From contig NEEC01000016.1 in the NCBI GenBank assembly GCA_002189035.1, forward strand, positions 496,001 to 560,000: 64,000 nucleotides of DNA, given 5' to 3'. Shown piece by piece: positions 47,772-59,210 of the stretch. Position 1 is the first letter of the stretch, and the number at the start of each line of letters is the position of its first letter. The translations under genes were made by a program, and so were the position numbers. The notes below the pieces were generated by a model that saw only the letters and a list, made by a program, of their open reading frames with translations, had not been told where the DNA came from and searched no databases. Source of the stretch: Utricularia gibba. Taxonomy: Eukaryota; Streptophyta; Magnoliopsida; Lamiales; Lentibulariaceae.

Positions 47772-47853
47772 CTTTGATTCTGATTTGGAGAACATGGTAT
47801 GGATTCCAACACAAAAGGGGATGGTGGGATAACTGAAACATGCATTGAGAGTG

Positions 47854-48960
47854 TTAATTGCGACGGCGGCAGTTTCTTCTGATCTCGCCGGCGGTGCCTG
47901 TGAGGGGGCTGAGGTTTCCCATTCTCACCATCGTCTCAGAGAAGGCCCTCCTGAAGGCGGCACCGTCGGTGGCGAAATGCTGAACAACGGAGTCGGTGGA
48001 GACGTTGTTGAAGATCTGCTGGTCGGAATGGAGAAGGCCGCGACGGTTCACCAGGTTCTTGTAGTAGTTGTTGTCGAAAACCGCGGAGGGGACGTCGAGT
48101 GGGGCGAGGTTGGAGTCGCCGCCGGTTCTGGGGCAGTTGGCTCGGAGCTCGGCGGCGTAGGTGGCGTTGATGTTGGACTCGTTGTAGATGCGGTTGCGGA
48201 AGAGGAAGCACTGGGCGAAGCCGATGTTGTGGCCGCCGGAGAGGATGACCATGTCCCGAGCGGAGAACCTCTTGGCGGCGAAGGATCTGACGAGCGCCGG
48301 GAAGTCGGATAATGGGGACGGGATATTGGAATTGACCTCTGCTGGGGTGGCGGGGTTGAGGGCGTCTCTTCTCCCCAACGGAACTTCCCATCGTGGGCCT
48401 CCCAGCTGATGGATCACAAGAGAAATTCAGACCTCAAATGCCAGGAAAGTTTTTATTTGCAGAAGGCTTACCAGTTCGACTCCGTCTCGTGCGGCGATGG
48501 CCAAGATATCTGCGCAGGAGACGGTGTTAGCGCACTCGGCTTCCACTCGGGTTTTGATGTTGTCGATGACATCGAAGCCCCTCAGGGAGTTCCGATTGGG
48601 AGCGGCTCCCTTTTCTCCAGGCGCTGAGGAGGTGCTGTCCAGCAGCACCGATCCATCACATCCCTGAGGATCATACCAAAGCAGACGGTGAGTCAGTAAT
48701 CAATAGTGAGCTGATTTCACTAGCAGCAATGGGTCTGGTAGCCCGCTTACATGAACGAAGCAGTCATGGAAGTGCATGCGGAGGATGGAAGCCCCCATTC
48801 TCCTCTCCTCGAACACGGCGTCTGTCATCACTTCCCTCACGATCTCCTGAAGATCGGGGCACGATGTTTCGTAGAAATCCCACGACAGCTGCGCAGAGGC
48901 AAAGCCCAGAGCAAGCGCAGCCATCAGCAAGAAAACCTGAAGACTCGAAGAAGAAGCCAT
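47854..48960 (-). CDS. Class III secretory peroxidase, copy A
   Basis: Three exons, 48960-48751, 48663-48472 and 48405-47854, give 317 residues. Class III peroxidases are secreted haem enzymes that oxidise phenolics with H2O2 in the cell wall or vacuole. The signal peptide is residues 1-23 ([13 protein letters not shown]), and the mature chain begins [11 protein letters not shown]. Distal Arg61 and His65 are in [18 protein letters not shown] is the calcium-site region, and proximal His193 is in [11 protein letters not shown], where most relatives have GAHTIG. All catalytic residues and the eight cysteines expected of the fold appear present. The protein is identical to copy D over the exons compared. 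It diverges head-to-head from copy B. Exon phases are standard for the family. Confidence 0.95.
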
Positions 48961-48990
48961 TGTTTGCTGAAAACCCAAATGCTGCTGAAT

Positions 48991-49030
48991 GCTTGCTGCT
49001 TGCTGCTTGCTGCTTGCTGCTTGCTGCTTG
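48991..49030 (-). repeat. Heptanucleotide repeat in the 5' UTR of peroxidase A
   Basis: About five copies of a 7-base unit (AGCAAGC on the transcribed strand) lie between the TATA box and the ATG. Copy D has the same expansion at 57952-57990, while copies B and C have only one or two units. Confidence 0.8.
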
Positions 49031-49055
49031 ATGCTTCTGCATGGGTGTAGGGCTG

Positions 49056-49065
49056 CTTTTATAAA
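49056..49065 (-). promoter_or_regulatory. TATA box of peroxidase A
   Basis: TTTATAAAAG on the minus strand lies about 95 bases upstream of the ATG. It is flanked by the same CCCCGCG block as in the other three copies. Confidence 0.7.
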
Positions 49066-56514: not shown

Positions 56515-56830
56515 TTTTTATGGATTGTTTTGAGGTAAATTAATGTGGATTGTTTGGTAGGTACTTTTGAAAGGTGTTTTATTTAAAGTAGGGGTTTTTT
56601 AATAAATTCTATTTTATGATTTTAAATTTAGAATGTGTTTGATAAATAGATTTAAATGTGTTATATTTTGTAATGAAAAGATATTTGGATTATGATCCTA
56701 AACGATTGGTTTTACATTTATTTAGAAATGCAATTAAGATAAAAGTAAATTAAAAATAAATATTCCATTTAGTATAAAACATACCATCCTCTCCATTTAT
56801 TTAAAACTTATTACCAAACGCATATCTAAA
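56515..56830. mobile_element. Insertion present only in the right peroxidase intergenic region
   Basis: Alignment of the two intergenic regions is continuous on both sides of about 315 AT-rich bases, between GTTATTTGTGGGTG and AATAAAACATACTTTGAAA. These are absent at the equivalent site near 50216 in the left pair. It contains GTGTTTGATAAAT near 56634 and TTACCAAACGCA near its right end, hinting at a MITE. Termini are not resolved. Confidence 0.45.
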
Positions 56831-57916
56831 ATAAAACATACTTTGAAACCGCCATTAAATCACCTAGCAAATAGTACCTTAGGGTTTATTATTTAGGGTA
56901 TGATGTACGGTTGCACATAACTTGTGTAACTTTCTAAGTTTTGTTCCGCTTCTGGATATTGTAAATGAACATGAATTAGAAGGTAAGTTGATGGTTGATC
57001 AGTCACACTTCCAAGGGTTAAAGACACGAGTCTTGTCTTCCCCTCCTCGTAACCTGTTGCTGCTCTAGTTTGTTAGGATCAGTTGCTATTCTGTCGTTAG
57101 GTTTACATTCTGGATGAAGGTGAAACTTTGTTCTGGTGTTGTTTGTTATGCATATGTCCATTTATTGCATTGAGTTGTACTGAAATCTGCCATCCTTTTG
57201 CATCAATAAACGTCCAACTCCATCACATTTAGTGTAAGAGCAGATTTAGCAGCAGAGTAATTCGCATCTGCCAAACGTTTTCATCAAAGTGGCATCAGTA
57301 GAAATTGTTCAAGTACCATGTTACCAAAACCACCCAAATCTAAAGGGTACATAAACTACATTGAAACGCATCATGTGTAATAGGCAAGTTAGTTAGCTGT
57401 GGTTTGCCATTCCTTTTGTTTTGTTATGGGCTCCTAAACAAAAACGAGACAATTATTATTAGAGCAAGTAATCCCACGTAGGACGATTAAAATGGTATGT
57501 TAAAGTTAAATTTTTATTAATATAATTCACGTTTATTATGTATTTATATTTTATATGAATCATTGTATTCTTAATTTCAATAAAATAAAGAACACAGCTA
57601 TCTATCATAAGAAATAACATGCTAAGGCTTGTTATATTTGTGCCAATGGGTATGCTCAAAACTACAAGAAATTGGAGAAAAACATATTATTATATTGTAA
57701 TGGTGGCCTTGCCGCTATGTTTGACGTGTCCACGTCCTCACCCGCGTTGAAAAAACGTACAGAAGGAGATTTGTCTGACTTCATTTGTGAATAGAAACGT
57801 ACACGGCGGCAGACACAGAGTCAACTGGTATGCTCTTCTGCTTTGAACGCCGTACGCACCTTTTCTCCGGCATCGGAGGGGGTGGAGCCCGTGTTGAAAT
57901 ATTTGAGCGCCCCGCG

Positions 57917-57926
57917 TTTATAAAAG
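57917..57926 (+). promoter_or_regulatory. TATA box of peroxidase D
   Basis: TTTATAAAAG lies about 95 bases upstream of the ATG, followed by the five-unit heptanucleotide 5' UTR repeat, exactly as in copy A. Confidence 0.7.
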
Positions 57927-58021
57927 CAGCCCTACACCCATGCAGAAGCATCAAGCAGCAAGCAGCAAGCAGCAAGCAGCAAGCAGCAAGCATTCAGCAG
58001 CATTTGGGTTTTCAGCAAACA

Positions 58022-59128
58022 ATGGCTTCTTCTTCGAGTCTTCAGGTTTTCTTGCTGATGGCTGCGCTTGCTCTGGGCTTTGCCTCTGCGCAGCTGTCGT
58101 GGGATTTCTACGAAACATCGTGCCCCGATCTTCAGGAGATCGTGAGGGAAGTGATGACAGACGCCGTGTTCGAGGAGAGGAGAATGGGGGCTTCCATCCT
58201 CCGCATGCACTTCCATGACTGCTTCGTTCATGTAAGCGGGCTACCAGACCCATTGCTGCTAGTGAAATCAGCTCACTATTGATTACTGACTCACCGTCTG
58301 CTTTGGTATGATCCTCAGGGATGTGATGGATCGGTGCTGCTGGACAGCACCTCCTCAGCGCCTGGAGAAAAGGGAGCCGCTCCCAATCGGAACTCCCTGA
58401 GGGGCTTCGATGTCATCGACAACATCAAAACCCGAGTGGAAGCCGAGTGCGCTAACACCGTCTCCTGCGCAGATATCTTGGCCATCGCCGCACGAGACGG
58501 AGTCGAACTGGTAAGCCTTCTGCAAATAAAAACTTTCCTGGCATTTGAGGTCTGAATTTCTCTTGTGATCCATCAGCTGGGAGGCCCACGATGGGAAGTT
58601 CCGTTGGGGAGAAGAGACGCCCTCAACCCCGCCACCCCAGCAGAGGTCAATTCCAATATCCCGTCCCCATTATCCGACTTCCCGGCGCTCGTCAGATCCT
58701 TCGCCGCCAAGAGGTTCTCCGCTCGGGACATGGTCATCCTCTCCGGCGGCCACAACATCGGCTTCGCCCAGTGCTTCCTCTTCCGCAACCGCATCTACAA
58801 CGAGTCCAACATCAACGCCACCTACGCCGCCGAGCTCCGAGCCAACTGCCCCAGAACCGGCGGCGACTCCAACCTCGCCCCACTCGACGTCCCCTCCGCG
58901 GTTTTCGACAACAACTACTACAAGAACCTGGTGAACCGTCGCGGCCTTCTCCATTCCGACCAGCAGATCTTCAACAACGTCTCCACCGACTCCGTTGTTC
59001 AGCATTTCGCCACCGACGGTGCCGCCTTCAGGAGGGCCTTCTCTGAGACGATGGTGAGAATGGGAAACCTCAGCCCCCTCACAGGCACCGCCGGCGAGAT
59101 CAGAAGAAACTGCCGCCGTCGCAATTAA
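58022..59128 (+). CDS. Class III secretory peroxidase, copy D
   Basis: Exons 58022-58231, 58319-58510 and 58577-59128 give 317 residues. I found the coding sequence, introns, 5' UTR repeat and promoter the same as copy A on the opposite strand, so catalytic residues and signal peptide are as described there. The match extends through the 3' UTR to 59210 and then breaks. Near-identity to A, against clear divergence between B and C, points to a recent copying or gene-conversion event, or to an assembly duplication. Confidence 0.95.
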
Positions 59129-59210
59129 CACTCTCAATGCATGTTTCAGTTATCCCACCATCCCCTTTTGTGTTGGAATCCATACCATGTTCTCCAAATC
59201 AGAATCAAAG

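Follow-up and report, generated by a model that had tools for sequence, protein, structure and literature searches.

A peroxidase gene quartet in Utricularia gibba with direct flanks and an inverted core: a probable history of tandem duplication, inversion and gene conversion

Four peroxidase genes in direct flanks around an inverted core

The window analysed here, a stretch of 64,000 bases (contig C402, bases 496001-560000), was compared with a 100.09-Mb genome (516 contigs). We identified four intact class III peroxidase genes, which we assigned as A (47854-48960, minus strand), B (50868-51986, plus strand), C (54691-55808, minus strand), and D (58022-59128, plus strand), in the order A(-) B(+) C(-) D(+) that an earlier interpretation of the letters alone (the sequence-only reading) had given. 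Each gene has two GT-AG introns and encodes 317 amino acids; the D protein is the same as that of A, while B and C differ from A by one and 10 residues, respectively. All four translations matched the peroxidase domain PF00141 and belong to class III by the distal R..HFHDC motif, the proximal SGGH, the eight cysteines, and the hydrophobic leader that we read in them. Synonymous changes among the four genes far exceed non-synonymous ones. The closest solved chains are those of the class III plant peroxidases 5twt (switchgrass Pvi9) and 1sch (peanut), which the A-D proteins resemble over the full-length domain and in sequence, without any unusual feature by comparison.

The sequences downstream of the genes pair A with C and B with D. 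Self-BLAST confirmed this claim of the sequence-only reading, with both pairings in direct orientation, and each of the six motifs that it quoted occurs exactly twice, at the expected places and on the expected strands. The flank on the 3' side of A (L flank copy 1, 47590-47771) is 6.4% diverged from 54437-54597, within the flank on the 3' side of C (L flank copy 2, 54433-54597, delimited by self-BLAST and motif positions). The self-BLAST match itself runs from 47621-47764 to 54454-54597, and the 14-base GATTACATTGACAC is also common to the two flanks in direct orientation. The near part of the R flank extends over 52069-52357 beside B, matching 59211-59372 beside D directly (self-BLAST, 52075-52149 versus 59217-59290). 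The match picks up again further out for about 600 bp, in a fragment of the gene at 61-63 kb, where the far parts of the two copies (52909-53513 and 61169-61887) are ~4.7% diverged.

At the junction of the tandem duplication lies a composite filler of 919 bp (53514-54432) with matches to contig C375 and to a dispersed repeat. The piece at 54015-54433 (419 bp) is 87% like C375:1847089-1847487, and the piece at 53693-54012 (320 bp) is a repeat with near-equal end points at C4:2104943 and C451:5096844. The first 180 bp gave weak matches only.

Two further observations concern the neighbourhood. A small prolamin-like gene (PF05617; 59960-60403) adjoins D; in the first tandem unit, no counterpart lies next to B. 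Elsewhere in the genome, L025 (C505:1705001-1714000) matches the genes flanking the peroxidases (those at 61-63 kb and 46 kb) in inverse order, with no peroxidase between these matches; a diverged peroxidase, L024, lies ~32 kb away.

Within the direct flanks, the promoters pair differently: A goes with D and B with C, and both matches are inverted. This pairing, also claimed earlier, was borne out by self-BLAST for A and D (47764-50022 versus 59217-56961, 99.87% identity) and for B and C in two blocks (50225-50393 versus 56512-56344, 96.5%; 50442-52088 versus 56232-54588, 95.2%). The inverted matches run through the promoters and across most of the intergenic sequence. The B-type region upstream of B (50225-50867, plus strand) matches 56512-55811, upstream of C, in inverted orientation, and the B-type promoter half together with the middle of the region between C and D (55811-56960, minus strand) is an inverted copy of 50098-50867. 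The C-D region also holds ~300 bp of repeat DNA with no counterpart in A-B. This C-D-only stretch (56513-56828) includes a dispersed repeat whose diverged relatives number at least 30 genome-wide. The intergenic middle, which contains indels and the repeat, is ~29% diverged, well above the other segments.

Shared age of the segments and polarity from outside paralogs

The divergences of the L flank (6.4%), the R flank (4.1-4.9%), and the B-C promoter (6.2%) are homogeneous, with a pooled value of 5.4% (chi-square P=0.79), as expected if the whole unit was duplicated once. These values would be equally compatible with an inversion that preceded the duplication on one parental chromosome.

Paralogs outside the locus give the polarity. 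Two of them on contig C1, L021 and L022, combine an L-type 3' flank with an A-type upstream region (main BLAST E values 1e-17 to 1e-54), and BLAST found no match to the B-type upstream sequence in either. Since the L-type flank goes with the A-type upstream region in both, these paralogs indicate that A-B is the ancestral arrangement and C-D the flipped copy. A third paralog, L023 on contig C412, combines a B-type gene and promoter with a remnant of the A-type promoter on the opposite strand, and the spacing of its promoters is about as in A-B. The head-to-head arrangement is thus older than the duplication. Comparison of ~300 bp of the L023 and L024 flanks with L and R showed no excess over dinucleotide shuffles. 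In a test anchored at the gene ends, L024 was R-like (z ~6 against simple shuffles) and L023 marginal, with AT-rich matches, and we do not claim the combination of R flank and B-type promoter as proven ancestral.

Mosaic gene bodies and the A-D identity tract

The gene bodies do not follow the promoters. The sequence-only reading had paired them as B-C and A-D, whereas C is a mosaic: of the 43 arm sites that separate A from B, it shares 21 with A and 22 with B, and these fall into 14 runs (permutation p=0.006). Whole-gene divergences are 2.9% for A-B, 3.7% for B-C, and 3.9% for A-C, and B is slightly closer to A/D than to C. The 5' UTR of C, likewise said to pair with that of B, has an A-like leader at A coordinates 49031-49055. 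Above A coordinate 49076, C is B-type at 18/18 sites; its 3' UTR and flank, below A coordinate 47847, are wholly A-type. These patterns indicate that the body of C is a patchwork left by conversion. A and B have exchanged sequence as well, since many exon sites have a state common to A, B, and D that is missing from C and from the outside paralogs.

A and D are nearly identical, which the earlier reading had missed. Over ~2,255 bp we counted 0 substitutions, where ~121 would be expected from the 5.4% divergence elsewhere. The tract (A coordinates 50022 to 47772) has a sole indel of 1 base, at 49242, plus two differences at the flank boundary. At its outer edge, A passes into the L flank and D into the R flank, so that identity far over the local background ends sharply, as in ectopic conversion. 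This deficit implies that A and D were made alike long after the duplication, and it points to later gene conversion as the best explanation of a match that would not come merely from the flip.

Donor and recipient may be told apart by the 3' UTR. At 47820, 47819, and 47776, D has derived states in common with A and C although it lies beside the R flank, and these three states are missing from B and from the two closest outside paralogs. The direction was therefore most likely from A to D, with moderate support from few sites. The likely donor is the A copy of the tract (47772-50022, minus strand), comprising the 3' UTR, the gene, and the A-type upstream region; the likely recipient is the D copy (56961-59210, plus strand), with its derived 3' UTR states beside the R flank. 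A leader array of five GCAGCAA units is long in A (48993-49030) and D (57955-57990) only. Its expansion is absent from L021 and L022, so the array probably lengthened in the A lineage before being copied onto D.

Order of events, alternatives and known systems

We consider a history of duplication, inversion of the C-D core, and ongoing conversion the best explanation of the locus, and a probable one. The ancestral unit would have comprised the L flank, an A-type gene, a shared intergenic region, a B-type gene, and the R flank. The tandem duplication of this head-to-head pair, ~5% divergence ago, would have left foreign filler at its junction. The C-D core would then have been inverted, or would already have been inverted on one parental chromosome, so that the gene on the L side (C) received the B-type promoter and the gene on the R side (D) the A-type one. 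The gene bodies would afterwards have been shuffled by ectopic conversion, and the latest step would be the ~2.25 kb conversion of A and its upstream region onto D. The sequence-only reading had proposed tandem duplication with inversion as the simplest account; the equal divergences and the polarity from the paralogs strengthen it, although the gene-body pairing offered with it fell away.

The likeliest means of the inversion would be homologous recombination between the two genes of the pair itself, an inverted repeat of ~1.3 kb. The A/B and C/D gene arms (~1.3 kb, 94-96% identical, inverted) flank the flipped segment. A flip of everything between the 3' ends, as the earlier reading had it, is uncertain, since C keeps its A-type 3' UTR at the L flank. 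The switch on the C side thus lies inside the gene arm, between A coordinates 49076 and 47847, which is where recombination between the two genes would place it. Chance alone would put both breakpoints in opposite arms with a probability of about 0.1, and homology-mediated flipping is accordingly favoured, not proven. Re-flipping by hand gave a direct tandem duplication only when A-B alone or C-D alone was turned, and the polarity selects C-D. Reversing an A-D or a B-C flip yields neither a simple direct nor a simple inverted duplication. We also rejected a palindromic (inverted) duplication, which would pair the flanks of A with D and of B with C.

Further points weigh against this history. 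The A-type half of the C-D region lies wholly in the recent tract, and its part in the old inversion is suggested by the B-type half and the middle. The D-side breakpoint was overwritten by the A-D tract, so the extent of the flip is not readable from D. Finally, the intergenic middle is the ~29% diverged segment described above.

A single replication-based repair event, in which template switching duplicated and inverted the second copy together, is unlikely but the strongest of the alternatives. The fork would have gone back to L, entered the inverted gene at A, run in reverse through the pair, and returned to B and R. Template switching or end joining typically leaves composite filler such as that at the junction, whose pieces come from two or more distant places. 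Human complex rearrangements provide documented cases of junctions within inverted repeats (PMC4352052), and the equal age of all old segments fits this path equally well. It needs, however, two more homologous switches within one event, and the documented DUP-TRP/INV-DUP products carry an inverted triplication that is absent here.

Improbable, and more so than the repair event, is a plain tandem duplication without inversion, followed by two independent conversions, an old one of the B promoter onto C and a recent one of the A promoter onto D. This account is in line with the active conversion at the locus and with the wholly recent age of the A-type half between C and D. The B-type half and middle of the C-D region are nevertheless collinear with inverted A-B far past the gene arm (50098-50867). 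A conversion tract would have to run 600-800 bp beyond the homology, and both events together would have to replace the whole intergenic region.

An assembly artefact, with the near-identical A/D arms copied or misplaced or the inner 7 kb flipped, is very improbable. In its favour, a single 1-base indel is all that separates A from D over ~2.25 kb, but the locus is on no other contig of the assembly, the window lies at 496-560 kb within a long contig, B and C differ by 5%, and re-flipping the inner 7 kb yields no simpler history than the assembled order.

The ~14 kb described here retain an order of events, namely a head-to-head pair, its duplication with filler, a core inversion, and conversion. 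Two cautions follow for tandem plant genes: trees of gene bodies, promoters, and flanks can disagree, and a perfect match of two copies may mean a late conversion rather than a recent duplication. Since the A-D proteins are nearly the same, the flip would be expected to act, probably to a small degree, on where or when the copies are expressed. A literature search found no report of tandemly duplicated class III peroxidase genes that lie in opposite orientation.

The near-identical inverted arms of A and D are a natural substrate for more flips of the intervening 7 kb. An active flip/flop, in which repeated recombination swaps the promoters' neighbours, conversion homogenises the arms, and both orientations coexist, is improbable for this locus. 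The one assembly has no alternative contig for it. In the flip/flop of Saccharomyces chromosome XIV, the segment lying between inverted gene repeats, which conversion homogenises, changes orientation, and both orientations segregate and recur within species (24-kb region, 4-kb repeats; PMC9731477). The peroxidase locus resembles it in having inverted genes, held similar through conversion, with a flipped segment between them. The core here is ~4 kb, in one assembly, and it is the comparison of the tandem copies that reveals its flip.

Human polymorphic inversions are likewise bounded by short inverted repeats (1.6-24 kb), with recurrence common (PMC3961182). They resemble the peroxidase locus in having such repeats at the ends of inverted segments; here, in one assembly, the arms are the genes themselves and the unit is also tandemly duplicated. 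In DUP-TRP/INV-DUP rearrangements, inverted repeats direct a duplication with an inverted segment (PMC4352052), and a duplication of that kind holding an inverted segment is what the two cases share. In the peroxidase locus, unlike those products, every segment of the unit is present twice, without inverted triplication. The process is thus of a known kind, and the quartet is a clear small case of duplicated-gene rearrangement, not a new type of system; it is unusual mainly since the tandem copy preserves the record.
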